From positions 1 to 64,000 of the forward strand of contig NZ_JAIUJR010000006.1 in NCBI RefSeq assembly GCF_020166335.1: a DNA stretch of 64,000 nt, given 5' to 3'. Shown here piece by piece: positions 47,492-61,087 of the stretch. This stretch comes from Winogradskyella alexanderae (lineage in GTDB: Bacteria; Bacteroidota; Bacteroidia; Flavobacteriales; Flavobacteriaceae). The notes beneath the pieces were generated by a model. The model did not search any database, had not been told where the DNA came from, and saw only the letters and a program-made list of their open reading frames with translations. Position numbers and translations under genes: made by a program. Within the stretch, counting starts at the first letter, position 1. Each line of letters begins with the position of its first letter.

Positions 47492-48433
47492 ATGCCGTTT
47501 TTTTCTGTCATAATACCACTATATAATAAAGAAGACTACATTTCTGAATGTCTTGAGAGTGCCTTAAATCAGACTTTTAAGGATTACGAAATTATCATTG
47601 TTAATGACGGCTCTACGGACAACAGCATAAAGTTGGTAGAGAATTTTAAATCGGATAAGATTAGGCTGTTTCATCAGGAAAATCAAGGTGCTAGTAAGGC
47701 AAGAAATAATGCCACAAATTTTTCAACAGGTAAATATTTAGCTTTCTTAGATGCAGACGATATCTGGAAAACTAACCATTTGGCTTGTCTTTATGAAAGC
47801 ATTAGTACTTTTAAAGACTGTGGAATTTACACTAACAATTATTTCATTAAGCACAGCAATTCTATAACTGCTCCTGCAAAATTCAATTTTAAATTCAATG
47901 GTGATAAACCTTTTATACTAGATGATTTTTTTAAAGCAAGTTTGCATGAAACGGTAGTCTGGACTTCGGCATGTTCAATTAAGAAGTCTAAGTTTATAGA
48001 TTACGGCATGTTTAATCCTGTTTATTTAAGCAGTCAAGATTTAGATATGTGGATAAGGATAGCCCTAAATGAAGCAGTGGTTTTTCACCCTAAGCGCACT
48101 ATGATTTACAATAAATCCATTGAAAATAGTCTTGGTAAAATAGAAGATAATGATGCACGCTTTATATTATTAAGTTCGTTTAAAAACAAAGAAAAAGAGA
48201 ACCCTAGTTTAAAAGCGTATTTAGATTTAAAGCGCTATGGTCTTGCATTACGAACCAAAATTAATGGTGAAGAAAAAATTCATTCAGAAACGGTAAAATT
48301 GATAGATATAAGAAATTTAAGTGTAAAACAAAAACTCCTTCTTAGAACACCTGCTTTCCTACTTATGATTATGAATAACATAAGACCTTATCTTATTAAA
48401 AATAGACTGTATCTAGCTATTTTTAAAAGCTAG
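47492..48433 (+). CDS. Family 2 glycosyltransferase
   Basis: The 313-residue protein has a GT-A fold with VNDGSTDNS (38-46), the NTP-metal site DAD at 87-89 (FLDADD) and WTSACSIKK, then a SSQDLDMWIRIAL block with the likely catalytic Asp. The last segment contains hydrophobic residues (LLRTPAFLLMIMNNI) suggesting membrane association. Its 3' end overlaps the convergent FdtA gene by 21 bases. Confidence 0.9.
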   Translation: MPFFSVIIPLYNKEDYISECLESALNQTFKDYEIIIVNDGSTDNSIKLVENFKSDKIRLFHQENQGASKARNNATNFSTGKYLAFLDADDIWKTNHLACLYESISTFKDCGIYTNNYFIKHSNSITAPAKFNFKFNGDKPFILDDFFKASLHETVVWTSACSIKKSKFIDYGMFNPVYLSSQDLDMWIRIALNEAVVFHPKRTMIYNKSIENSLGKIEDNDARFILLSSFKNKEKENPSLKAYLDLKRYGLALRTKINGEEKIHSETVKLIDIRNLSVKQKLLLRTPAFLLMIMNNIRPYLIKNRLYLAIFKS

Positions 48434-48823
48434 AAAGTCGTTAAAATTCCTGATATAATCATCCTCATTATATTGAGCTGATGCTAATACCAAGCAAACA
48501 CAACCAGAAGAGAAGTTGTCTATTTCCCGCCAGATACCTGGAACAATCAATAAGCCTTTATGAGGTTTATTTAAGTTTATTATTTTGGTGGTTTCCCCAT
48601 CCTTTAAATGCACATCAAAACTTCCAGAGAGTGGAATTAAAAGTTGATACAGTTCTTTGTGCGCATGTCCTCCCCTGAATGCATCAGAAGGTACATCGTA
48701 CAAGTAGTAAACACGCTCAATCGGAAAAGGTATAGTTGTACCTTCAATAACAGCAAGTAAACCTCTTTCGTCATGAACTCTGGGAATTTCAATCAGTTCG
48801 ACATTCTCTATTTTTGAATTCAT
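48413..48823 (-). CDS. FdtA/QdtA-like dTDP-sugar 3,4-ketoisomerase (cupin)
   Basis: From ATG at 48823 (MNSKIENVELIEIPR) the product has 136 residues; the frame extends to 48850 but would overlap the glycosyltransferase stop at 48826. The cupin motif RGGHAH at about 50-55 provides the two histidines that catalyse isomerisation of dTDP-4-keto-6-deoxyglucose to the 3-keto sugar. This makes 3-amino-3,6-dideoxyhexoses such as Fuc3N or Qui3N. The partner aminotransferase gene lies at 53695-54792. Confidence 0.85.
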   Translation of the reverse strand: MNSKIENVELIEIPRVHDERGLLAVIEGTTIPFPIERVYYLYDVPSDAFRGGHAHKELYQLLIPLSGSFDVHLKDGETTKIINLNKPHKGLLIVPGIWREIDNFSSGCVCLVLASAQYNEDDYIRNFNDFLAFKNS

Positions 48824-48825
48824 TT

Positions 48826-49920
48826 TTAGGATTCTAATAATTTTTGCCATTGCAAGGCTATATTCGACATGGCAAAAGTCATAACACTACTCCTTGCATT
48901 TTGCTTGCAGCTAAGATATAACTTTTCATCTTCTACAAATCTATTCAGACCTTTAGCTAATGTTAATTCATTATTGTTTTCTACCAATAATCCATTATGG
49001 CCATTTTCTAAAACACCGTCTTTATAATTATCATACATAACGCTAACCACGGGAATTCCGCAAGCTAGAGATTCCAATACGGTCATAGGAAAACCTTCAT
49101 AACGGCTACTCAACACTGTAAATCTCGAATTAACAATGTACTTAAATGGATTATCAGAAAAAGGCAGGACAATGACATGTTCTTTCAATTTTAAGTCAGA
49201 AATTAGGTTGAGTATATCTACTTTATCCTTGCCATCTCCCATTAGTATTAGCTTGATTGCCCTGTCTTTTAGAATAGACTGATTGTAAGATTCCACCAAT
49301 AGTTTTAAGTTTTTTTGTTCATCCTCAAAACGACCATACCACAGTACAAAATCAATTTGGTCTTTTAGCGTCTGTATTTTTAGTTTATCTAAATAATCAA
49401 AATCGATAGGGTTGTAAATGGTGTCTAAATTTTTAAAACCATAAGTACTAGCTACTTTGTTGGTAATTCCATTAGAGACGGAAACAATAGCTTTTGAACG
49501 CTTATACAGTAATTTAGTTAACCATTTTACTGGAGGGAAATACAAATCAATTGCATGATTATGTACAATATAAATTGTGGCTTTTGGATAGATTAAACCA
49601 GATAATATATGCTCAGAAAATAATTTAGTCCTAACCCTATGGTCTATGAGAATATCAATTTTTTTCTCAGTGATAAAACGCTTTAGCAAACGTAATCTGT
49701 TAAACCTACCTAATAAGGTATCTTTCTTCTCTTTTATTTCTCCAAGATTAAATAATTGGCCTTTATATGGATAGGAAATACTATTTAAAATTGTGACGAT
49801 GTACACCTGATAACCAAGATTGGCAAGCATGATAGATTGCAAGGATGCTACGCGGTCTGCTCCACCTTCACTGAGTGATCGGCAAACTATACATATTCTT
49901 TTTTTATGATTACTTTGCAT
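48826..49920 (-). CDS. Family 4 glycosyltransferase (GT-B fold)
   Basis: The 364-residue protein has the N-terminal start RICIVCRSLSEGGADRVA and the C-terminal signature of GT4 enzymes (RYEGFPMTVLESLACGIPVVS), with the donor-binding E in YEGFP and SLACG. It should transfer a nucleotide-sugar to a growing glycan. It is divergent from the next glycosyltransferase (25-base spacer) and is followed by the ketoisomerase gene. Confidence 0.9.
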   Translation of the reverse strand: MQSNHKKRICIVCRSLSEGGADRVASLQSIMLANLGYQVYIVTILNSISYPYKGQLFNLGEIKEKKDTLLGRFNRLRLLKRFITEKKIDILIDHRVRTKLFSEHILSGLIYPKATIYIVHNHAIDLYFPPVKWLTKLLYKRSKAIVSVSNGITNKVASTYGFKNLDTIYNPIDFDYLDKLKIQTLKDQIDFVLWYGRFEDEQKNLKLLVESYNQSILKDRAIKLILMGDGKDKVDILNLISDLKLKEHVIVLPFSDNPFKYIVNSRFTVLSSRYEGFPMTVLESLACGIPVVSVMYDNYKDGVLENGHNGLLVENNNELTLAKGLNRFVEDEKLYLSCKQNARSSVMTFAMSNIALQWQKLLES

Positions 49921-49945
49921 ATAAATTGGAAGGTAAAGATATTAA

Positions 49946-51094
49946 ATGAAAGTATTACTTTTTGGAGAATACAACAGAGCACAATGGAACATTAAGAAAG
50001 GGCTAGAAAATCTCGGTCACGAAGCCGTTGTGGTAAGTCTAAGGGATGGGTTTAAGAAAGTAGATGTTGATATTGAAATTAAGGATCATTTTACATCTTA
50101 TGCTCTTAAAAAAATCAGAAATCTTTTAATTAGACTTTTTGGTTTTGATATTTCAGCATGGAGTATTAAACGCCAGATTAAAGCCAAAAAAGATAAACTC
50201 TCAAACTTTGATATCGTTCAATTGGTAAATGAAGCACCATTCGATTTTAATAGGAAACACCAAAAGATAATCTTCGATTGGTTAAAAGATTGGAATAAAA
50301 CCATCTTTTTGTTGTCTTGCGGATTAGATTATCCCAGCGTAAAATATGCTTATGATAAGAAATTTAGATATTCCGTATTAACCCCATATTTTGAAGGCAA
50401 GGGAAGCAAAAGAGACTTCTCTCCTGCCTTAAGCTATATTTCTGAGGAGCATGTAGAATTTCATCATTATATCTTCAATCATATATCTGGTGTTATTTCA
50501 AATGATCTCGATTATCATTTACCATTAATAGGATATAAAAAATATCTTGGTATGATTCCGCATGCTATAGATACTTCTAAACTAAAATACCAAAGACCAG
50601 TCATAACGGATAAAGTTATTATTTTTCACGGCATTAATACCTTCAACTATTTTAAAAAAGGAAATGATATTTTTGATCAGGCATTACAAATAGTCGAGGA
50701 AAGGTACAGCACTAAAGCAGAGATTATAATTACGAAGAATTTACCCTATAAAGATTACATAAAAAGCTTTGACAAAGCGCATATCTTATTAGATCAGGTT
50801 TATGCTTATGACCAAGGTTTTAATGCCCTAGAAGCTATGGCCAAAGGTAAAGTTGTATTTACTGGCGCTGAAAAAGAATGGGAAGATTACTTTAATGTGG
50901 AAGGAGATACAATAGCCCTTAACGCTTTACCTGATCCGGTTTTAATCGCAAACAAACTCATTTGGTTGATTGAAAATCCCAAAAAAATAATAGAAATTTC
51001 TAAAAAGGCACGCAAGTTTGTTGAAGACCATCATAATTATGTAGCATGTGCAGACAAATATTTAGAAATTTGGAAAGAGGCCATTATGCATTAA
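49946..51094 (+). CDS. Glycosyltransferase, GT4-like C-terminal half
   Basis: The 382-residue protein begins MKVLLFGEYNRAQWNIKKGLENLGHEAVVVSL, typical of GT-B N-terminal domains. The C-terminal part carries ILLDQVYAYDQGFNALEAMAKGKVVFTG, comparable to the donor-binding EALA loop of GT4 enzymes. The middle (residues 90-200) is less conserved. It overlaps the convergent flippase gene by 11 bases. The product is predicted to be cytosolic and to add a sugar to the same polymer as its neighbours. Confidence 0.75.
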   Translation: MKVLLFGEYNRAQWNIKKGLENLGHEAVVVSLRDGFKKVDVDIEIKDHFTSYALKKIRNLLIRLFGFDISAWSIKRQIKAKKDKLSNFDIVQLVNEAPFDFNRKHQKIIFDWLKDWNKTIFLLSCGLDYPSVKYAYDKKFRYSVLTPYFEGKGSKRDFSPALSYISEEHVEFHHYIFNHISGVISNDLDYHLPLIGYKKYLGMIPHAIDTSKLKYQRPVITDKVIIFHGINTFNYFKKGNDIFDQALQIVEERYSTKAEIIITKNLPYKDYIKSFDKAHILLDQVYAYDQGFNALEAMAKGKVVFTGAEKEWEDYFNVEGDTIALNALPDPVLIANKLIWLIENPKKIIEISKKARKFVEDHHNYVACADKYLEIWKEAIMH

Positions 51095-52406
51095 TCTTAG
51101 ATTGTTTTCTGTAATACAGATGCACAAAAATTATAACCACGATTAGATATACAGCATATCTTACAAAGTGTGCAATTACAACCCCCTCCGTACCATAATT
51201 ATTTAAAAATAGCTTTGTTAAAACATAGAATAAGACAAGAGAAATCAATTCAGTAATAACAAAACTAGATACTAACTTTTTTGCCAAAAACTGATAGGCC
51301 AAAACTAACGCGCAAAGTCTAATGAAATCCCCTAACAGCTGCCACTTAAAAAGTGGTTCCATTCCCGTAAAATTCGGATAGATTAATTGAATAATATAGT
51401 TGCGCGATAAATAAACCAATAGCATACCGATAAAAAATATCGGTAGAATTGTTTTATAAATAGTAAGAACTTCTCGAGTAAATTCTAATCGACCATGGAT
51501 ACTTGCGAATCTCGGCAAAACATAAAGCGTAAAAAGGCCTGTTGCAAAAACCATGTAATTTTTTGAAATAAAGGTAATTGCAGTCCAATAGCCTGCTTCG
51601 TTGATATTTATTTCATCCGTAACTAAAGTTCGTATCTCTAATTCAATATAATTGATTAAAAAAGCTGAAATGAAGGACATTAAAGTAAAAGCCATAAGGT
51701 TTTTACGATAATCTAATTGAAGTTTAAAGTTCTTTAATTTTACATACTGTGTTAAGGTCTTTCCAAAAATAGCCACAAGAGTTATAAGCTGAATTATAGG
51801 TGCAATAACAATTGCAATTATTACACCTTGTAGATTATAGCTGTATAACCCAACTACCAAAATAACAGAAGCGATCAAATAACTAATAAGTTCAATTTTG
51901 GCATACTTCTTATAGTCGGATAATCCATTGACCACACCACTTATGACCCTGCTAAGAGCTATAAAAGGTACTATGATTGCCAATACCTTAAACACATAAG
52001 TAAACTCATTACTTTTGAACACATAGTTTGTAAAATAATCTGCCCCAACAAACAAAACCAAAGCAGAAATAATTGCGCCTAAAAGCAAAAAAACAGTCGC
52101 TGTAGAAAAAACTTTTGTAAGTTCTGGACGGTTGTTCTTAAATTCGGAAACATACTTTACCAGTCCACTAAAAGTACCAAGTGTTGAAGTACTTGAAAGC
52201 ATAGCGAGGATATTCCGAATCTGACCAATACTAGCGATACCAGCCTCTCCAACCGTTACGGCTAACAGTCTTTGAATTATAACAGAAACGATTAACCTTA
52301 TTGAAATAACAACAGCATTTAAAGAGGTTATCTTTAAAACAATGTTATTTCTAATAAAATCCGGAAATTTCAATATTACAGTATTAGCTTTCTTCGAGTC
52401 CTTCAT
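51084..52406 (-). CDS. Wzx-like oligosaccharide flippase (first of two paralogues in the order on the map)
   Basis: From ATG at 52406 (MKDSKKANTVILKF) the product has 440 residues; a frame from 52436 adds ten residues. It has about 12-14 hydrophobic spans of the polysaccharide-transport (MATE-like) superfamily and resembles WzxE-like translocases. The N-terminal region (KITSLNAVVISIRLIVSVIIQRLLAV) is parallel to the next flippase. It probably moves a lipid-linked glycan across the inner membrane. Its 5' end overlaps the upstream flippase gene by 23 bases. Confidence 0.85.
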   Translation of the reverse strand: MKDSKKANTVILKFPDFIRNNIVLKITSLNAVVISIRLIVSVIIQRLLAVTVGEAGIASIGQIRNILAMLSSTSTLGTFSGLVKYVSEFKNNRPELTKVFSTATVFLLLGAIISALVLFVGADYFTNYVFKSNEFTYVFKVLAIIVPFIALSRVISGVVNGLSDYKKYAKIELISYLIASVILVVGLYSYNLQGVIIAIVIAPIIQLITLVAIFGKTLTQYVKLKNFKLQLDYRKNLMAFTLMSFISAFLINYIELEIRTLVTDEININEAGYWTAITFISKNYMVFATGLFTLYVLPRFASIHGRLEFTREVLTIYKTILPIFFIGMLLVYLSRNYIIQLIYPNFTGMEPLFKWQLLGDFIRLCALVLAYQFLAKKLVSSFVITELISLVLFYVLTKLFLNNYGTEGVVIAHFVRYAVYLIVVIIFVHLYYRKQSKINA

Positions 52407-53694
52407 CTGACAAAACTCCAAACAAAGAACTACCAAAAATTAGCAATATAATTCCAAAATGCATAAAATAACTTAAACAATGGCCCATTACTGCTCCTAC
52501 AAGCCCGTAAGCATCAATAAGGTATATGCTTGAAAAGTATATAATTACAAATAGAAAAATCTCAATAACAATGAAATGTGCAAACATCTTTTTTGCCAAA
52601 AACTGATATGCAATAACCATAGATAATACCCTCATAAAATCCCCAAGGATCTGGTATCCAAATAAGTCTTCAACAGGTTGAAATTCCTCAGTAAATAGAA
52701 TGTTTACCAGTACAGATCTACTTAAGTAAATTATAAGCAAAATCAAACCAAAAACAGGTATTATAGTCTTGTAAAAACTGAGTACTTCCTTTCTAAATTC
52801 CTTCTTGGTTGTAATTTCAGAAAATCTTGGTAATATATACAATGCCATTAAGGAATTGATAAACATTAAATAATAGTCCGAAACTCTATTCATTGCTTGC
52901 CAATAACCAGCCTCTTTCAACCCTATTTCTGCGATAATGTAGTTTCTTATTATAATTAAAACCACTGGTATCGCTATTGAAGAAACTAATGCTATAAGCA
53001 TGTAAGGACTTAATCTATCAAGAATGGAAAAACTAAAATTAGTTATTTTAATTAAGTTTATAAGACTTTTTCGGTATAGAATACCAACTATAGATATTAG
53101 CAAATTAAGGGCTGGAGTAATTACCACCGCTACCAGTGCGCCATCAATATTGTCTTGCCATATCAGCAAAATGGTTACCAACAAACCAAGTATCTGCCCT
53201 ATTATATTAATAATGAATAGAATTTTATACTTTGAAAAACCATTCATTATTGAAAACACAAACATGTTTAGCGCATAAAATGGTAGGACAATAGCCAAAT
53301 ATTCAATTACATAGGTGTACTTATAATTGCCTTGAAAAATGAGACTGTTAATAAATTCCGCATTGTAATAACATAATAAGGCAAGGATCATTGAGGTAAA
53401 AAATCCAATATAAAATACTGTAGACAGGGTTTTGCTCAGTTCTCTGGCGTCATTTTTAAACTTATCAATATATTTTACAACTCCTTTATAAAGTCCAACT
53501 ATAGCTAGGGATTGGATCGCACTTAAAAAATTCCGCAAGTTACCAATTAATGCCATGCCTTCTGCACCGATAAAAACTGCGATAAACTTGGAAATTAAGA
53601 TTCCGGCAATAATCTTTATACTAATATTTGCCGTATTAAGACTTGCGGCCTTATTTAAGACTTCAGTGTTTATATAGTTGAATAATTTTTTCAA
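52384..53694 (-). CDS. Wzx-like oligosaccharide flippase (tandem paralogue)
   Basis: The 436-residue multispan protein has the same layout and superfamily as the neighbouring flippase. The first 80 residues share clear parallel blocks (SLNTANISIKIIAGILISKF against SLNAVVISIRLIVSVIIQRL). The gene is translationally coupled to the aminotransferase stop (0 bases) and overlaps the second flippase. Two flippases beside each other suggest either two exported glycans or a heterodimer. Confidence 0.88.
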   Translation of the reverse strand: MKKLFNYINTEVLNKAASLNTANISIKIIAGILISKFIAVFIGAEGMALIGNLRNFLSAIQSLAIVGLYKGVVKYIDKFKNDARELSKTLSTVFYIGFFTSMILALLCYYNAEFINSLIFQGNYKYTYVIEYLAIVLPFYALNMFVFSIMNGFSKYKILFIINIIGQILGLLVTILLIWQDNIDGALVAVVITPALNLLISIVGILYRKSLINLIKITNFSFSILDRLSPYMLIALVSSIAIPVVLIIIRNYIIAEIGLKEAGYWQAMNRVSDYYLMFINSLMALYILPRFSEITTKKEFRKEVLSFYKTIIPVFGLILLIIYLSRSVLVNILFTEEFQPVEDLFGYQILGDFMRVLSMVIAYQFLAKKMFAHFIVIEIFLFVIIYFSSIYLIDAYGLVGAVMGHCLSYFMHFGIILLIFGSSLFGVLSDEGLEES

Positions 53695-54792
53695 TTAGTA
53701 GGCATTTAGAACTTGGATAATGGCGTTCACTTCTTCTTTTGTCATTACTGGGCTTATAGGTAAACTAATTACGTTTTGATGAATCCTCTCTGTTATGGGT
53801 AAACTCAAAGTTGAATACTCTTTTAATGCTTCCTGCTTGTGAGGTGGTATTGGATAATGAATTAGCCAACCAATCTTATTATTATTTAAATACTGAGTAA
53901 ACGCTTCTCTGTTTTTGACCTCAACAATAAAAGCATAGAACACATGGTTTTTTGCACCACTATAATATGGAAGTTTCAGCTTAGGATTGGCAATTTCTTT
54001 TAAATAGCGCATTGCAATTTCTCTACGACGTTGATTGTCGTTGTCAAGTACTTTTAACTTTATAGATAAAAACGAAGCCTGTATACCATCTAATCTCGTA
54101 TTGTATCCTTTTAGGGCATTTTGATATTTTGCTGTGCATCCATAGTTGGACAACTTTCGAACCATATCATTTAGCTCTTTATCGTTTGTTGTTATAGCTC
54201 CTCCGTCACCTAGTGCTCCCAAATTTTTACTAGGATAAAAACTGAAAGCACTGGCATCTCCAAGGTTACCAGCTTTGCCATCTTCATTGTATGCACCGTG
54301 TGCCTGAGCTGCGTCTTCAATTAAAAAAATAGCTTTCGATTTGATAAGTGTTTTAATGGCACTAACGTCAGCTAATTGACCATAAAGATGAACCACAATT
54401 ATTGCTTTAATATCATCAGTTAGGTAAGGGCTTATGGTATCAGCAGTTATATTATAGGTTTTGGGGTCTGGTTCAACAAATATAGGTTCCAATCCAGCAT
54501 GAATAACAGAGAGTACAGTTGCAATAAAAGTATTAGCAGGAACTATAACTTTATCACCAATTTTTAACCTACCTATTTCAATATAACCTTTTAAGATTAA
54601 TGTCAAGGCATCTAGACCATTTCCAGTTCCTATACAATAGGATGTACCGCAATAGTCGCTAAATTCTTTTTCAAAACTAGAAACATTATTCCCAAGAATA
54701 TATTGAGCATTGCTAATATCATTGTCTAGTGAAGCATGAAACTGATTCTTGAATCTAGCGTTAATTTTATGTAGATCTAAAAAGGGTATCAT
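53695..54792 (-). CDS. DegT/DnrJ/EryC1/StrS family sugar aminotransferase (FdtB-like)
   Basis: The 365-residue PLP enzyme has the internal aldimine Lys189 (FYPSKNLGALGDGGA), the conserved PANTFIAT segment and VHLYGQ, all typical of the nucleotide-sugar aminotransferases. Paired with the FdtA-like ketoisomerase it probably converts the 3-keto sugar to a 3-amino-3,6-dideoxy sugar. It overlaps the GNAT gene by 4 bases and abuts the flippase gene. Confidence 0.88.
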   Translation of the reverse strand: MIPFLDLHKINARFKNQFHASLDNDISNAQYILGNNVSSFEKEFSDYCGTSYCIGTGNGLDALTLILKGYIEIGRLKIGDKVIVPANTFIATVLSVIHAGLEPIFVEPDPKTYNITADTISPYLTDDIKAIIVVHLYGQLADVSAIKTLIKSKAIFLIEDAAQAHGAYNEDGKAGNLGDASAFSFYPSKNLGALGDGGAITTNDKELNDMVRKLSNYGCTAKYQNALKGYNTRLDGIQASFLSIKLKVLDNDNQRRREIAMRYLKEIANPKLKLPYYSGAKNHVFYAFIVEVKNREAFTQYLNNNKIGWLIHYPIPPHKQEALKEYSTLSLPITERIHQNVISLPISPVMTKEEVNAIIQVLNAY

Positions 54793-55727
54793 ACTAATTT
54801 AATTTCATAATAATCCTGTTGGTACTCCTTACAACCCAACTCAATTTTTTGCCTCATTAGGCCTACGTTATAGCCTTCAGGATAGGCGTCATCCATAACA
54901 GTTCCCATTGAAAAATAACGTTTACCTTCTGTCTTGTATTTGTAAATTAATTCAATAAACAAATATTCCAATGCACGTTGGTTTTCGCCAAGATCATTCG
55001 TTGCACCGTATTGGGACTTTACAACATGGCCTTTGTCAAAAATAGTAATACCGGCTAGAATCTCTCCCTTTAAATAGATATTATACTGCTTTATCTGTTC
55101 AATGAATCTCGATTTTAAAAGGGTTATTTCATTCAAAGTATGCACAGGGCTAGTGTTATGTCTGGATTTTAAGCGCGGGATGAGCACACGATTCCAAAAA
55201 CTTTCGAAGCTACTTTCCTCTCTTATTTCAAAACCCTTAATATGGTTCTTACGGTAATGCTTAAGTTTTGTTTTATGAATATTCAAGGGTAAACTATAGT
55301 CTATCGCCAGGACCTTATTGCTATGGTACAAAATAGAACTAATACCTTGAAGATAATTTGTTACCCGCTTTGAGTTGGCTGATTGATAAATGACGGGTAA
55401 ACTTCTTATCTTCAGATATTCAATTTCAAATTCAATTAAGTAATCTCGTAATGCAATGAATATTGAATCTATACTATAATTGCTTTCTAGAAAAAGGCCA
55501 CCATAGGTTAAACCTTGATGTGAATAAAGGGTGTTGTCTTTAAGATTGGCAGGAAGCAACCCAATTAGGCTATTTCCCATATAAATCATTAATGAAAAAT
55601 CTTCAAATCTATCACTATGATAGTCCATAAAATTCCTTTTGAACAAAAAGGTCATCTCTGGTGATGAATCCACAAAGTCATCCCAAATTTCAATATCGTT
55701 AGTGCTATATTTCTTAATCTGTATAAT
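54789..55727 (-). CDS. FemAB/GNAT-like transferase with non-ATG start
   Basis: No ATG opens this frame: an in-frame stop precedes the region, and the first usable start codon of the common kind is GTG at 55673, which would give 294 residues. The 15-18 codons before it code for a plausible natural N-terminus (IQIKKYSTNDIEIWDDF), so the start is probably ATT at 55727 or 55718 or ATA at 55724. The C-terminal half (KSQYGATNDLGENQRALEYLFIELI) and GNAT-like (FemAB) shape suggest an acyl or aminoacyl transfer to the amino sugar made by the neighbours. ATG-less initiation is inferred, not shown. Confidence 0.65.
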   Translation of the reverse strand: MIQIKKYSTNDIEIWDDFVDSSPEMTFLFKRNFMDYHSDRFEDFSLMIYMGNSLIGLLPANLKDNTLYSHQGLTYGGLFLESNYSIDSIFIALRDYLIEFEIEYLKIRSLPVIYQSANSKRVTNYLQGISSILYHSNKVLAIDYSLPLNIHKTKLKHYRKNHIKGFEIREESSFESFWNRVLIPRLKSRHNTSPVHTLNEITLLKSRFIEQIKQYNIYLKGEILAGITIFDKGHVVKSQYGATNDLGENQRALEYLFIELIYKYKTEGKRYFSMGTVMDDAYPEGYNVGLMRQKIELGCKEYQQDYYEIKLV

Positions 55728-55754
55728 AAACCTAGTTTTACATGGACAAATAAA

Positions 55755-57239
55755 TCATTTATCTTTTGTAGTTACATTGCCGTTATGATCAATCGCTTCA
55801 ATTACGTCTTTATTCCCAAAGCTGTTCAATCTTAGGTTGTAACTAATGTCTTCTTCCATATGATCTAAATACTTTTCATTTTTGCTTAAAGACGCAAATA
55901 AAACCCTAAATACATTAACATTAGATTCAAGGTCCTTATCAAACCCTTCTTCAAGATGACCAGTCCATTTTATTGCTGCAATATTCGAAAAAATAGAATT
56001 GATCAATTCTGGTTTTTCATTACTATAAAGGTCATTAAAACTTCTTAAGCCAACCCATCCGCCATGATCTGCTAGAATGATAATTATTCCATTTCCATCC
56101 TTTTCAGATATATAATTAATAATGTCCTTCAACCAAATATTAACTTCTTCAATTCTGCTCAGATAGCGATCGCGTTCTTTCAAGACAGATTCATCTGTTT
56201 TAAAAAATGCTACATGGTGGGGCATTAGCTTTTCGATGAAGAAAAATTTTGGAGTGCTGTCCAACGGTTTATATACGGCTTTAAAGTCTTTGTAGACGTC
56301 TCTCACTTCATTTCCGCCTTTGGTCAAGTGCGAAAAATCATCTTTTTCTATATTATAATAATCGAAAATTTCTTGTTTCTTGTTTTGCTGAAAGTATTCA
56401 TCCTCAGCTATAAAATAGGTCTCGTAACCATTGGAATTAAAAATAGATGCAACAGGATTATGTTTTGTTATAACTTCTCTTCCATTCGCAAACTCTATTT
56501 TAGGAAATATCATATCGGCATATTTATGTTGCTTCATTGCAAATAATGATGCATTGGAGGTTAAACTTGCAGGATAATTACTCCTAAAATTATCATATAC
56601 TTTAAATCCATTTACATCTAACCAATCATAAAGATCACTTTTGTAATTATACGGAGACGATTGCATCATTTTCTTAGAGACATACCCATCTGGTTGAATC
56701 ATATAAACATTTGGGAAGGACTTAAATTTTACATTTTCAATATCATCTGGCTGTTCTAACCATATATCGCGTTTGATGTCTTCATAAATATTAACTGACA
56801 TTCTCACAAAAGACAAGCAAGAAAATAACAATAGCACTACAACCATTTTTTTATAATGCTTTCTTGGGTTAAATGGTAAAACAAATCCAATAACAGCCAT
56901 ACCAACAAGGAGTGCAATGCGTTTTAATGTTGAGTTAAAATAAGTTTGGCTTAAAAAAATGATAACAGCTAGTGTAATTAACCAAAACAGCACATGCTTT
57001 TGCTTTGATTTAAACCTTCCAATTCTTCTAAAAACAAAAAAGTAAATACCATATAACAGTAGGACAAACCCAAAAATAAAAGCGGAAAAAAATAACAGAT
57101 GAGATAATGAATTTACTGCCCAATAGTTGTTAGAAACATAGAATAAAACTGGTGTTATTGCTATTGCAAGAAAGGTTAGTAATGGTGCTTCCTTTTCACT
57201 AGATATAAAATCTTGAATTTTGTCTCGTAAACTACTCAA
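55755..57239 (-). CDS. Membrane-anchored alkaline-phosphatase-superfamily enzyme (sulfatase/LTA-synthase-like)
   Basis: The 494-residue protein has about five transmembrane segments (residues 19-148) and a C-terminal hydrolase domain. Metal-binding motifs are DGYVSKKMM at about 185, a Ser/Thr-rich block SNYPASLTSNAS (candidate nucleophile), MPHHVAFF and ILADHGGWVG. The layout is that of lipoteichoic-acid synthases and phosphoethanolamine transferases, so modification of a lipid-linked glycan by a phosphate group is likely. It overlaps the methyltransferase gene by 8 bases. Confidence 0.8.
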   Translation of the reverse strand: MSSLRDKIQDFISSEKEAPLLTFLAIAITPVLFYVSNNYWAVNSLSHLLFFSAFIFGFVLLLYGIYFFVFRRIGRFKSKQKHVLFWLITLAVIIFLSQTYFNSTLKRIALLVGMAVIGFVLPFNPRKHYKKMVVVLLLFSCLSFVRMSVNIYEDIKRDIWLEQPDDIENVKFKSFPNVYMIQPDGYVSKKMMQSSPYNYKSDLYDWLDVNGFKVYDNFRSNYPASLTSNASLFAMKQHKYADMIFPKIEFANGREVITKHNPVASIFNSNGYETYFIAEDEYFQQNKKQEIFDYYNIEKDDFSHLTKGGNEVRDVYKDFKAVYKPLDSTPKFFFIEKLMPHHVAFFKTDESVLKERDRYLSRIEEVNIWLKDIINYISEKDGNGIIIILADHGGWVGLRSFNDLYSNEKPELINSIFSNIAAIKWTGHLEEGFDKDLESNVNVFRVLFASLSKNEKYLDHMEEDISYNLRLNSFGNKDVIEAIDHNGNVTTKDK

Positions 57240-58617
57240 CTTTTCTCTTCATTAAATACATTACACGATCAGAATTCTTGATCGCAATTTTCTGTTCTAT
57301 TTTGAAAAATCTTGTATAACTCATTTCAAAATTATCAGAACTGTAAAAATCAAAATAGGTTTCAAATTCGCCTTTTGACTTTAACAATCGCTGTACCCAG
57401 GAATCATTTCGTTTTGGAAATTCAATGATTAACCTATTTGAAAAATGAGCAAAAAAACGGGCTGATTCCCTAAAAGGTACATTACCTGATAGTGACATAT
57501 GATGAATAACGGCCAAAGCCATAACAACATCTGGTGCGTAGTCTTTTATTCTATTCAAAAATGAAGTTCGTTCTTCGTTATTAAGGCCAAGTCCTGGTGA
57601 CGGATTTAATACATCAAGAACAAACGGTAACATATTCTGTTCATTAGATTTCTTTAGCCTCATATAATTAGCATCGACTGCATTGTTATCAATATCGCAG
57701 ACTAATTTTTCTGAAATATCAAAATCTATTTCCCTAGCAAACGTGCCATCGTTACCTCCTATATCAATTAATAAGTTTGGTTTAATGGCTTGAATCCAGG
57801 TATTGATTATTTCAGATTTATGATTAAAAGCATCTTCAGAATAATTTATCTTATCATAATAATTGCCCCATTCTGTCGCGGTTTTAAGCTTAAGATTTTT
57901 AATAAAATTGTAAAGGCTTTTAATAATATTCAGCTGGCCTTTTAATGATAAGGATTTTACTGCGGTTTCTCCTTTATAATCCTCATTATGCTTTTGTTCC
58001 AACTTAGCTAACAAATGAATATTGCTGAAAAGAATTGGGCTGAATTTGGTTTTAAACGGCAATAACGAACTTGCCATTGTAACTGGTATGCCATCAATAA
58101 AATTTCGAATTAACTTCAATTGATCTGCACCATGATAGTAAGATAAAACTAATGGAGATAGAAAGTGCATTACAAACTGCTTGTATGCACGCCACGGTAT
58201 ATTTTCTTCATAAAAATCAAAGCTTAAGGTGTCAATAAAAACGGCACTTCCTCTATGAAAAGTTATATTGAATGCCGAAGCATCTTTTAAACTAAACCCA
58301 TTTTCTAATGCAACCTTCTGAATCTTTAAAGTTAAAAGCGCTGCCTCCTTGTACATATTAAAACTCCATTCATAAGGATAAGTAATAAATGGAATTTGTT
58401 CTGGCTTAATTAATATCTCTTTATCCGTAGAAGATAATTCGTCATGTGGAATTAGTAATCCGTTCTTAAAAAGCTTTTTATAAAAACCCGATTCTGTAAG
58501 TGCTTTATATTGCCTAAAATAGATTGGATTAATTACACGTTTTACCTCTCCATTATCTAGAAAAATATAACCTGAAGGATCTCTAAATGAAGATGAATGA
58601 AGTGCCTTAGCGTCCAC
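57232..58617 (-). CDS. SAM-dependent methyltransferase (NoeA-like)
   Basis: The 461-residue protein has a long N-terminal part of its own (1-270, with a HRGSAVFIDTLSFDFYE block) and a C-terminal Rossmann domain with motif I LIDIGGNDGTFARE at about 278-290, then DVVMALAVIHHM. Proteins of this shape are annotated as nodulation-type NoeA methyltransferases, acting on glycan or lipid. It follows the 65-residue membrane protein by one base and overlaps the hydrolase gene by 8 bases. Confidence 0.8.
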   Translation of the reverse strand: MDAKALHSSSFRDPSGYIFLDNGEVKRVINPIYFRQYKALTESGFYKKLFKNGLLIPHDELSSTDKEILIKPEQIPFITYPYEWSFNMYKEAALLTLKIQKVALENGFSLKDASAFNITFHRGSAVFIDTLSFDFYEENIPWRAYKQFVMHFLSPLVLSYYHGADQLKLIRNFIDGIPVTMASSLLPFKTKFSPILFSNIHLLAKLEQKHNEDYKGETAVKSLSLKGQLNIIKSLYNFIKNLKLKTATEWGNYYDKINYSEDAFNHKSEIINTWIQAIKPNLLIDIGGNDGTFAREIDFDISEKLVCDIDNNAVDANYMRLKKSNEQNMLPFVLDVLNPSPGLGLNNEERTSFLNRIKDYAPDVVMALAVIHHMSLSGNVPFRESARFFAHFSNRLIIEFPKRNDSWVQRLLKSKGEFETYFDFYSSDNFEMSYTRFFKIEQKIAIKNSDRVMYLMKRKVE

Positions 58618-58618
58618 T

Positions 58619-58816
58619 TTACTTTGTATTGTCTACATCAGAATCTTTTACATCGATATCATCGAAAACATCATCTTCAACTGGTTTTGAAATTCCAAAG
58701 AACACTTTGATTTTGTGCATTAGATTTTTTGAAAACAATACCACTCCGGCAATTGCAGCAACAATTGCCTGAACAATCATTGCACCCAAACCAGGATCGA
58801 AATAAAGTAAATGCAT
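58619..58816 (-). CDS. Small membrane protein preceding the methyltransferase
   Basis: The 65-residue product has the start HLLYFDPGLGAMIVQAIVAAIAGVVLFSK (residues 2-30), a short aromatic-acidic motif FDPG and one hydrophobic helix, and an acidic C-terminal tail. Small proteins with this FDPGxG pattern are seen beside membrane sulfatase-like genes in flavobacteria, as here. The function is unknown; a subunit of the downstream enzyme is a possible reading. Confidence 0.7.
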   Translation of the reverse strand: MHLLYFDPGLGAMIVQAIVAAIAGVVLFSKNLMHKIKVFFGISKPVEDDVFDDIDVKDSDVDNTK

Positions 58817-58844
58817 GTTACAAGTTTTTGTAAATATAAAACAT

Positions 58845-59084
58845 CTAGCTTTTCTTACTAGCTAAATAGTAAATATTAACGGCTAAAATAGCACCATTAG
58901 CAATGATTATTGGTAGACCAATTCGAAGCGAGGGCATTAAAAATCCATATGAAATAAAAAGAATACATCCTGTCATATTAACCAACCTCAATTTTTTTAG
59001 TTCTTTCATCATAAAAGATAACAGAACCATAAATGAGGCTAAATATCCAACGTACTCCGTTGCGGTTATACCGGACAATTCCAT
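58845..59084 (-). CDS. Small three-span membrane protein (SemiSWEET/YgjV-like)
   Basis: The 79-residue protein has three hydrophobic segments (about 10-25, 34-50 and 54-74) and the family feature YVGYLASFMVLLSFMMKELKKLRLVNMTG. It resembles the small PQ-loop SemiSWEET or YgjV-type proteins, half-transporters that form dimers. Its place at the start of the glycan operon suggests carriage of a small sugar or precursor. There are 28 bases between it and the next gene. Confidence 0.65.
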   Translation of the reverse strand: MELSGITATEYVGYLASFMVLLSFMMKELKKLRLVNMTGCILFISYGFLMPSLRIGLPIIIANGAILAVNIYYLASKKS

Positions 59085-59093
59085 ACTTTCAGA

Positions 59094-60893
59094 TTAAACA
59101 CTTTTGGCACGTTTACGATCTACTTCCTTTAATAGGATTTTACGCAATCTCAAATGATTTGGTGTAACTTCAACGTACTCATCTTTTTGAATGTATTCTA
59201 AAGCCTCCTCAAGTGAAAATTTTATTGCAGGCACAATCTTCGCCTTATCGTCAGCACCTGCAGATCTTACATTACTCAATTTTTTGGTCTTTGTAACATT
59301 CACCACCATATCGTCACCACGAGAGTTTTCACCAATGACTTGACCTTCGTAAATATCTTCGCCTGGGTTAATAAAAAACTTACCACGCTCCTGCAATTTA
59401 TCTATCGAGTATGGAATAGCAGTTCCGTTTTCCATGGACACCAATGAACCATTCTGTCGTTCAGGTATACCGCCTTTAATCGGTCTGTATTCCTTAAAAC
59501 GGTGCGCCATAATGGCTTCTCCTGCTGTAGCAGTTAGCAATTGATTTCTTAAACCAATAATACCTCGTGATGGCACTATAAACTCACAAACCATACGATC
59601 GCCCTTGGCTTCCATTCTTAGCATTTCACCTTTTCGCATTGTGACCATTTCTATAGCTTTTCCGGATACAGACTCCGGTAAATCTATGGTCATCTCTTCA
59701 AAAGGTTCACATTTAACACCATCAATTTCCTTAATAATTACTTGTGGTTGTCCAATCTGTAGCTCATAGCCTTCTCTGCGCATTGTTTCAATTAAAACCG
59801 ATAAATGCAAGACACCACGGCCAAAGACCATAAATTTATCTGCACTGTCAGTTTCTTCCACTCTAAGTGCTAAGTTCTTCTCAAGTTCTTTTGTGAGACG
59901 TTCCTTTATATGTCGAGAGGTCACAAATTTTCCATCTTTACCAAAAAACGGGGAATCGTTAATGGTAAATAACATGCTCATGGTTGGCTCGTCAATTGCA
60001 ATAGTTTTTAAACCTTCCGGATTTTCAAAATCGGCTACAGTATCTCCAATTTCAAAATTTTCTAAACCTACTATAGCACAAATATCACCAGCTTGAACCA
60101 TATCTACTTTTTTACGCCCAAGCCCTTCAAAAGTGTGTAATTCTTTAATTTTGCTCTTTACTGTTGAGCCATCTCGCTTAACAAGAGATATCTGTTGACC
60201 CGATTTCAGATTTCCTCGTGTTAACCGTCCTATTGCAATCCGACCAGTAAAACTCGAAAAATCTAGTGAGGTAATTAACATCTGAGTCGAACCTTGCTCA
60301 ATTTTTGCTTCAGGAATATGTTCAATTACCATATCCAACAAAGGTTCAATATTGGATGTTTGCTCTTTCCAGTCCTCACTCATCCAATTGTGTTTAGCAG
60401 AACCATAAACCGTCGGAAAATCTAATTGCCATTCTTCTGCACCAAGCTCAAACATTAAATCAAATACCTTTTCATGCACTTCATCAGGTGTGCAGTTTTC
60501 TTTATCAACCTTATTTATAACCACACAAGGTTTTAATCCTAAATTAATTGCTTTTTGCAAGACAAAACGTGTTTGTGGCATTGGCCCTTCAAAAGCATCG
60601 ACCAAAAGTAGTACACCATCTGCCATGTTCAAAACACGTTCTACCTCACCTCCAAAATCAGCGTGACCAGGCGTATCAATGATGTTAATCTTGGTTTCCT
60701 TATAAACAACCGAAACATTTTTTGAGGTAATGGTAATACCTCTTTCGCGTTCCAAATCATTATTATCCAATATTAAATCACCTGTGTTTTCGTTCTCACG
60801 AAATAATTGGCAATGGTACATTATTTTGTCTACCAACGTAGTCTTGCCATGGTCTACGTGAGCAATTATAGCTATGTTTTTTATTTTGGTCAT
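59094..60893 (-). CDS. typA: Ribosome-associated GTPase TypA/BipA
   Basis: The 599-residue translational GTPase has G1 AHVDHGKT (11-18), G3 DTPGHAD (73-79) and G4 NKVD (127-130), then domain II, the EF-G-like domains III and V and the C-terminal domain typical of BipA. It is needed for ribosome assembly and stress or low temperature growth in studied bacteria. Its end lies nine bases from the SemiSWEET-like gene on the same strand. A -7 element precedes it at 60917-60924. Confidence 0.97.
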   Translation of the reverse strand: MTKIKNIAIIAHVDHGKTTLVDKIMYHCQLFRENENTGDLILDNNDLERERGITITSKNVSVVYKETKINIIDTPGHADFGGEVERVLNMADGVLLLVDAFEGPMPQTRFVLQKAINLGLKPCVVINKVDKENCTPDEVHEKVFDLMFELGAEEWQLDFPTVYGSAKHNWMSEDWKEQTSNIEPLLDMVIEHIPEAKIEQGSTQMLITSLDFSSFTGRIAIGRLTRGNLKSGQQISLVKRDGSTVKSKIKELHTFEGLGRKKVDMVQAGDICAIVGLENFEIGDTVADFENPEGLKTIAIDEPTMSMLFTINDSPFFGKDGKFVTSRHIKERLTKELEKNLALRVEETDSADKFMVFGRGVLHLSVLIETMRREGYELQIGQPQVIIKEIDGVKCEPFEEMTIDLPESVSGKAIEMVTMRKGEMLRMEAKGDRMVCEFIVPSRGIIGLRNQLLTATAGEAIMAHRFKEYRPIKGGIPERQNGSLVSMENGTAIPYSIDKLQERGKFFINPGEDIYEGQVIGENSRGDDMVVNVTKTKKLSNVRSAGADDKAKIVPAIKFSLEEALEYIQKDEYVEVTPNHLRLRKILLKEVDRKRAKSV

Positions 60894-60916
60894 AACCGTT
60901 GTGAATTTAAAGCGCG

Positions 60917-60924
60917 CAAAGGTA
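60917..60924 (-). promoter_or_regulatory. -7 element of typA
   Basis: TACCTTTG on the minus strand fits TAnnTTTG 23 bases before the ATG at 60893; no -33 element is clear. Confidence 0.5.
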
Positions 60925-61087
60925 CATCTAAATCCCTGTATTTCGTTAATTATATGTTATTATTTGAATTACAAGCAATTTGGATGTGTATCTTACGTTT
61001 CTGATTTGATTAATAGTAAAAGCCTAAAAACCACATCAACCGCTAATTACTGGCATTTTACATCTTAACCCTAATAATTTAAAAGAG

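Follow-up and report, generated by a model that had tools for sequence, protein, structure and literature searches.

In Sinorhizobium meliloti, the noeA and noeB genes lie on pSymA beside the Nod-factor acetyltransferase gene nodL, and the nodL-noeA-noeB genes were reportedly named as host-range genes in a paper of 1995. The available parts of other papers present NoeA and NoeB as host-specific nodulation proteins (PMC10945364) and as hypothesised modifiers of Nod factors (PMC9048898), and record that, among 27 host genotypes, a strain with a truncated noeA failed on 17 (PMC4053727). Neither gene has an assigned chemistry in the literature covered, and literature searches, whose coverage leaves out most subscription papers, returned no title that announces biochemical work on NoeA or NoeB. 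Here we describe a noeA relative from Winogradskyella alexanderae, found in a 64,000-nucleotide stretch of DNA (contig NZ_JAIUJR010000006.1, positions 1 to 64,000; hereafter the window), where it forms a three-gene cassette with a gene encoding a small membrane protein, called here the DPG protein after its motif, and a gene encoding a sulfatase-like membrane enzyme. We favour, at slightly better than even odds (about 0.55), the reading that a NoeA-type decoration cassette is inserted in a conserved typA-linked locus for a 3-amino-3,6-dideoxyhexose glycan and puts a phosphate-type group on a surface sugar. The rhizobial noeA is thereby also assigned to a cassette whose small membrane protein has no stated role in the literature covered.

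The family of NoeA has in part been described. In its available parts, PMC9758233 (2022) reports the Lani_1194 family as a kinase plus methyltransferase with homology to NoeA, in which an arginine likely replaces the usual lysine and equivalents of PKA D166, N171 and D184 are found. Flavobacteriales form the second largest group of the family, and conserved neighbours, given as predictions, occur in 65% and 38% of 816 neighbourhoods, the latter being an alkaline-phosphatase-fold partner. The DPG motif, all-or-none inheritance, tandem copies and a typA-linked slot are not named in those parts. Another described protein, WbdD of Escherichia coli O9a, resembles the window protein in combining kinase and methyltransferase in one polypeptide for an exported glycan; according to the available part of PMC3482155, it phosphorylates and then methylates the phosphate, and its regions follow in the order methyltransferase, kinase, coiled coil. 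It differs by this reversed domain order, by the coiled coil and by its ABC-transporter pathway, whereas the window protein ends with the methyltransferase domain. Searches for Flavobacteria glycosylation loci, or for NoeA together with a sulfatase and a flippase, gave nothing on this gene set by title, and the text of an Actinoplanes paper (PMC13390465) makes no mention of sulfatase, LTA synthase, alkaline phosphatase or NoeA. The view of an earlier note on this DNA, made from the sequence alone, that the genes are not recognised as a described system needs qualification: the trio is not entirely new, since noeA of S. meliloti is among its relatives and the kinase-methyltransferase family with its neighbours appears in PMC9758233. 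What the present analysis adds is the cassette with its all-or-none inheritance, the recognition of the small protein as a third member, the multiple enzyme copies and a slot of alternative content.

The cassette occupies the minus strand and consists of the genes for the DPG protein (65 aa, 58619..58816; identified by hidden Markov model, HMM), the NoeA-type kinase-methyltransferase (461 aa, 57232..58617; identified by tblastn to noeA, alignment and predicted model) and the alkaline-phosphatase-superfamily membrane enzyme (494 aa, 55755..57239; identified by predicted model, in the position of NoeB). Among 68 genomes of the genus, all three genes are present in the same 19 and all three are absent from the same 49. 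The earlier note had taken eight genes (51084-59084), from a SemiSWEET-like gene to two flippase genes, as one dedicated system that would travel together. Their location on a single strand, their tight spacing and a gene order that is kept in L002 and L051 are what such a system would show. However, the FemAB gene is found in 60 of the 68 genomes (19/19 with the trio and 41/49 without it, p 0.09) and Wzx1 in 66, regardless of the trio, while the SemiSWEET-like gene, found in 20, is not linked to it (7/19 with, 13/49 without, p 0.55); these are Fisher p values that ignore kinship, related genomes not being independent. DegT and Wzx2 are likewise present in 10 of the 12 trio-negative loci examined. 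The eight-gene system, contradicted by this survey, is thus rejected as highly improbable: only three of the genes co-travel, and the surveyed FemAB, Wzx1 and SemiSWEET-like genes are independent of them. As observed directly in its composition and its inheritance within the genus, the cassette is a three-gene, all-or-none unit, and the other five genes are common sugar-making and export neighbours. In one genus of marine Flavobacteriaceae, the cassette thus behaves as a removable unit, with several partner enzymes in related genomes.

The linkage was further followed in 52 loci collected by close similarity to the window methyltransferase, with which the genus sample probably overlaps. A DPG-type protein was recognised by HMM in 50 of them, L048 giving no match and L043 beginning at the methyltransferase gene. 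Of the 50 loci that could be assessed, 48 have the sulfatase-like gene directly behind the methyltransferase gene (in L021 this copy is a fragment); the exceptions are L030 and, with its called start 167 bases away, L005. In a sample of 395 genomes of the phylum, the kinase-methyltransferase was found in 14, the DPG protein in 10 and the sulfatase-like enzyme in 9. All 10 DPG and all 9 sulfatase-like genomes fall within the 14, and none of the 381 others holds either, bearing in mind that in each genome these searches scored a small number of candidates (3 to 15) and that absences there are not proof. The distance between the DPG match and the methyltransferase gene is under 2 kb in all ten genomes (about 1.7 kb in G253, less than 150 bases in the others), and eight of the nine sulfatase-like genes adjoin the methyltransferase gene. 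A more sensitive local search added a DPG neighbour at L058 and a sulfatase-like neighbour at L060, and one at L063 only at E 0.09. Relatives of the cassette occur in Bacteroidota, Pseudomonadota, Planctomycetota and Gemmatimonadota; Singulisphaera and Gemmatirosa have the methyltransferase and a sulfatase-like gene (HMM E 5.6e-23 and 1.8e-18) together with weak DPG matches (9.7e-5 and 1.9e-6).

Several observations weigh against the favoured reading. In the phylum sample, the sulfatase-like match of G033 lies about 400 kb from the methyltransferase gene, both partners are missing from G222, a sulfatase-like neighbour above threshold is lacking in G172, G239 and G201, and G078 has no DPG match. 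The more sensitive local search found neither partner at L066 and no sulfatase-like neighbour at L061 and L064. Among the 52 loci, L030 has no sulfatase-like copy within 3.1 kb downstream. In Smac51, the DPG gene lies after the methyltransferase gene, and there is no sulfatase-like match within 15 kb (1.6 kb of it downstream). Finally, since the available part of PMC9758233 gives the alkaline-phosphatase-type partner in only 38% of the 816 neighbourhoods of the wider family, the linkage is looser in that family.

The DPG protein has a short N-terminus with the motif YFDPGLGA, one hydrophobic stretch and a basic, then acidic tail. In 51 sequences including that of the window, a D-P-(G/T)-x-G motif precedes a hydrophobic stretch (mean hydropathy 1.96) and a basic tail, and 44 of the 51 have no K or R ahead of the motif. 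Under the positive-inside rule, this distribution of K and R would place the motif on the periplasmic side and the basic tail inside. A relative with the motif LDPGTG lies directly before noeA in S. meliloti (E 2.3e-5); in an annotated S. meliloti record, this DPG-type gene is placed between nodL and noeA and called a hypothetical protein. The pSymA arrangement nodL-[small ORF]-noeA-noeB (ORF, open reading frame) is thus like the trio, in the same order as the window cassette, with NoeA homologous over its full length, but it lies beside a Nod-factor acetyltransferase gene rather than in a Wzx locus and has a single noeB. The AHA sequence before the motif in S. meliloti and Smac51 looks, in our own reading, like a signal-peptidase-type site.

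The window NoeA-type protein (METHYLTRANSFERASE) is homologous to rhizobial NoeA over its full length, with 30% identity over 98% of the query (tblastn, S. meliloti), in agreement with its former label of NoeA-like. In tblastn against plasmids, 65 records were matched, of which 57 were from Sinorhizobium, and among the matches listed (30 of 65) the Sinorhizobium records that name the gene call it noeA; by tblastn, proteins of a deltaproteobacterium, Singulisphaera and Gemmatirosa are about 38-42% identical to the window protein. The homology of the DPG protein and of the kinase-methyltransferase to the genes around noeA is established directly. The protein comprises a kinase-like half (about residues 1-245), which the earlier note had overlooked, and a class I S-adenosylmethionine (SAM) methyltransferase (about residues 246-461); in the predicted model (predicted local distance difference test, pLDDT, 85) the C-terminal half has a class I methyltransferase fold (Z about 16). 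Residues R27, D112, N117 and D129, as well as D285 and G287 in the region of the SAM site, are observed to be invariant in 31 aligned sequences, and 48 of 51 close members and 14 of 17 distant ones carry a D..N..D kinase-type pattern. By our own match of positions, D112, N117 and D129 are the putative equivalents of PKA D166, N171 and D184, and R27 may be the lysine-replacing arginine described in PMC9758233. Kinase and methyltransferase activities are predicted for the NoeA-type protein.

Other results are less favourable to a kinase. No Pfam kinase match was obtained in the N-terminal halves of 10 members, bar one sub-threshold RIO1 match, and the fold searches covered mainly residues 246-460, in the methyltransferase half, so that the kinase fold stays putative. 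VRK3 comes at rank 41 among the 50 Foldseek matches listed (E 2.8e-5), and the alignment, when used to search PDB sequences, returned weak matches in the methyltransferase region and one other. The putative state of the kinase fold would fit a pseudokinase scaffold: the protein would then act solely as an O-methyltransferase on a sugar or lipid, while the sulfatase-like enzyme would attach an unrelated headgroup of the phosphoethanolamine or phosphoglycerol type taken from ordinary phospholipids. Its superfamily relatives EptC and LtaS, which are phospholipid-headgroup transferases, speak for this reading. We consider this rather unlikely, as a dead scaffold would not need D112, N117 and D129, which are invariant in 31/31 sequences and whose pattern is kept in 14 of the 17 distant members, and as the enzymes are strictly linked in the genus, which speaks for a shared pathway. 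MePCE and BCDIN3D, which we take to be phosphate methyltransferases, rank second to fourth by Z; they are tied with NNMT and others, and their ranks were therefore not used as evidence for phosphate methylation.

The joint presence of a kinase and a methyltransferase in proteins of glycan loci also recalls WbdD, which methylates the phosphate it adds (PMC3482155, available part). The kinase-methyltransferase could thus phosphorylate and methylate the end of the glycan in the cytosol and so end its growth, the sulfatase-like enzyme editing or removing the cap after export. WbdD entries are indeed found at ranks 21, 37 and 49 among the 50 Foldseek matches listed, for which the aligned domain is not stated. 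Against such capping speak the domain order, reversed with respect to WbdD, the Wzx flippases of the window locus and PMC9758233, which in its available parts draws no direct comparison between the NoeA group and WbdD. Furthermore, up to five distinct periplasmic enzymes, as described below, would be odd for the editing of one cap, and we regard this explanation as possible but doubtful.

The predicted model of the sulfatase-like enzyme (pLDDT 92) shows N-terminal membrane helices up to residue 155 and a C-terminal catalytic domain of the alkaline-phosphatase superfamily. This domain (162-494) matches PDB structures with Z up to 23.1, the best being YejM/PbgA, sulfatases, EptC and LtaS. EptC, LtaS and YejM/PbgA have the same arrangement of N-terminal helices and C-terminal superfamily domain (Z 19-23), but their identity among the matches listed is 11-14%, and the clade of the window enzyme has Ser rather than Thr at the presumed nucleophile position. 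Across 84 full-length copies, D184 and D391 are conserved in 84, H342 and H392 in 83, and position 225 is S or T in all 84 (Thr in 74, Ser in 10), the window enzyme being among the ten with Ser; these residues are presumably metal ligands and, for position 225, the nucleophile, as assigned from the superfamily pattern. In a quick, midpoint-rooted tree, the Ser225 copies form one clade (Shimodaira-Hasegawa-like approximate likelihood ratio test, SH-aLRT, 93), and in the four loci that mix Ser and Thr copies (L003, L006, L031 and L040; 4/4) the Ser copy is the last and adjoins femAB. A phospho-transferase or hydrolase role of this periplasmic enzyme is inferred.

The label sulfatase/LTA-synthase-like used in the earlier note is upheld by the predicted structure at the level of the superfamily, but PF00884 gives no match to the window protein at E<=1. 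Sulfatases of the formylglycine type carry the activation motif C/S-x-P-x-R, which, as judged by eye, is lacking in the nucleophile region YPASLTSN of the window enzyme; together with the PF00884 result, this led us to reject a formylglycine sulfatase. NoeB, by contrast, matches PF00884 (40.9 bits). It weighs against an equivalence of the two enzymes that the HMM of the window family does not list NoeB at E<0.5 and that their identity is 15%. NoeB is therefore taken as a counterpart by superfamily fold and gene position, not as a proven close relative; the window-family HMM does connect to intermediate proteins which, like NoeB, give PF00884 matches. It may be added that the genome of the window (G000) has no PF00884 sulfatase at E<=0.001, although 10 of 14 control genomes have one.

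The number of full-length sulfatase-like copies varies among the 52 loci, with one copy in 26, two in 15, three in 6, four in 1, five in 1 and none in 3, of which L011 and L047 run off the contig. None of the 57 copies from multi-copy loci has its nearest relative in its own locus (0/57), so that the tandem copies are old distinct types, kept or exchanged, rather than fresh duplicates. In L033:11389-19107 and L008:8484-15883, four to five full-length genes surround one kinase-methyltransferase gene, each being nearest to a copy of another genome. Fragmented sulfatase-like or kinase-methyltransferase genes were also seen in otherwise complete loci (L004:8160-9686, L021:11364-12834, L033:12870-13214 and L050:9977-11366). 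Because one kinase-methyltransferase accompanies one to five anciently distinct enzymes, alternative transferases that use the common product of the kinase-methyltransferase are favoured for the periplasmic enzymes over simple hydrolases.

In the decoration pathway that we prefer, the kinase-like half would phosphorylate a membrane-linked acceptor in the cytosol and the methyltransferase half would methylate the product, in a reaction of the WbdD type. The DPG protein would connect the two sides of the membrane, with its motif in the periplasm and its basic tail inside, and the alkaline-phosphatase-superfamily enzyme would, by means of Ser225, move or trim a phosphate-type group on the Wzx-exported glycan. 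A phosphate-linked decoration, as proposed in the earlier note, thus appears the most likely chemistry, and we infer that the group would be a methyl phosphate. This scheme resembles Gtr-type O-antigen glucosylation, in which a cytosolic donor-maker, a small membrane protein and a type-specific periplasmic transferase cooperate; the likeness is in the working scheme, with no claim of homology, and the group transferred here would be of phosphate type, not a sugar. Tentatively, and with less confidence than in the cassette itself, we imagine that the kinase-methyltransferase might make a membrane-bound methyl-phosphate donor, that the DPG protein might present it across the membrane and that interchangeable periplasmic enzymes might place it on different positions of the glycan. 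If so, one and the same machinery would serve to decorate both the surface glycans of Flavobacteriaceae and a host-recognised molecule in rhizobia.

The position of the cassette was compared with the corresponding slot, from typA to the flippases, in 12 of the 49 trio-negative genomes of the genus. In 10 of the 12 (L089-L096, L098 and L099), the space from typA to femAB or degT contains a gene for a large hydrophobic protein, about 530-590 aa in length; the six of these ten proteins that were scanned gave no Pfam match at E<=0.01. A close relative (at least 64%, query genome included) of a 317-aa GT2 glycosyltransferase accompanies the large protein in 5 of the 12. In L088 and L097, the SemiSWEET-like gene is the only one in the slot, and FemAB and DegT are also absent. 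The genes in the trio-negative slots look like glycosyl-decoration modules. A large protein of this type is also found in 5 of the 52 trio-positive loci (L001, L008, L013, L019 and L052), so that the cassette and the large slot protein are not mutually exclusive. Glycans can be compared directly between sister genomes that differ in whether one slot holds the cassette. It should be noted that the typA neighbourhood reflects related species, since the 52 loci were themselves selected for close similarity.

The genes around the cassette support the view of the earlier note that this is a glycan modification and export locus. The DegT-type sugar aminotransferase (53695..54792, minus strand; PF01041, 3.1e-95) is QdtB/FdtB-like, QdtB being the nearest specifically named solved protein (5.5e-110), with a putative aminotransferase (7n63) scoring higher. 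The FdtA/QdtA-type dTDP-sugar ketoisomerase (48413..48850, minus strand; PF05523, 1e-49), which lies outside the eight genes in the same glycan locus, has QdtA as its nearest specifically named solved protein (3.7e-33). Relatives of both the ketoisomerase and the 3-aminotransferase of the dTDP-3-amino-3,6-dideoxyhexose pathway are thus present, and because of these relationships the precursor is likely, as judged from sequence, a dTDP-3-amino-3,6-dideoxyhexose of the Fuc3N or Qui3N type, the two not being distinguishable here; the same type of precursor had been suggested before. The FemAB/GNAT-type acyltransferase (294 aa, longer with a non-standard start; 54789..55673, minus strand), a near-core neighbour, has weak FemAB and GNAT matches, the FemAB model being matched at 2.4e-5, far below its cut-off; as it lies next to DegT, the enzyme may N-acylate the amino sugar. 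Both flippases, Wzx1 (52384..53694, minus strand; near-core neighbour) and Wzx2 (51084..52436, minus strand), match the WzxE model NF011679 (2.2e-63 and 4.6e-51, respectively), yet below its cut-off; the presence of two WzxE-like flippases refers to the locus, no genome-wide search having been made for an ABC exporter. The small membrane protein called SemiSWEET-like (79 aa, 58845..59084, minus strand), a neighbour outside the cassette, reaches 15.9 bits against an NCBIfam cut-off of 80, and SemiSWEET was rejected as a family label.

All eight open reading frames between 51084 and 59084 were confirmed in place, on the minus strand throughout, and their compact spacing is essentially as first described. 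The SemiSWEET-like and DPG genes are separated by 28 bases and the DPG and methyltransferase genes by 1 base; the methyltransferase and sulfatase-like genes overlap by 8 bases and FemAB and DegT by 4, the gap between DegT and Wzx1 is 0, and Wzx1 and Wzx2 overlap by 23 bases, given an ATG start of Wzx2 at 52406. From its listed GTG start, FemAB lies 81 bases from the sulfatase-like gene. The FemAB frame remains open in the window (55673-55754) for about 27 codons beyond the first ATG, GTG or TTG (321 aa from stop to stop versus 294 aa), and likewise exceeds the called gene in several relatives; a rare start other than ATG, GTG or TTG could yield the gap of about 30 bases given in the earlier note. 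The typA gene lies on the same strand, 9 bases upstream of the eight-gene run. The adjacency of the genes of the locus is far above chance; terminator-like sites were at chance level (5 found versus 5.7 expected in 48300-61000), as was the promoter scan of the locus. Judged by the methyltransferase gene, the records nearest to the window are from Winogradskyella, and the order from the SemiSWEET-like gene to FdtA is kept in the closest relatives, L002 and L051. The glycan locus extends past the eight genes to about 46.2 kb, with a glycosyltransferase, a GT4 glycosyltransferase (48826..49920, minus strand; PF00534, 4.3e-31), FdtA, a GT2 and a capsule-type protein. At 48413-48433, fdtA and the GT2 gene converge, with a 21-base overlap.

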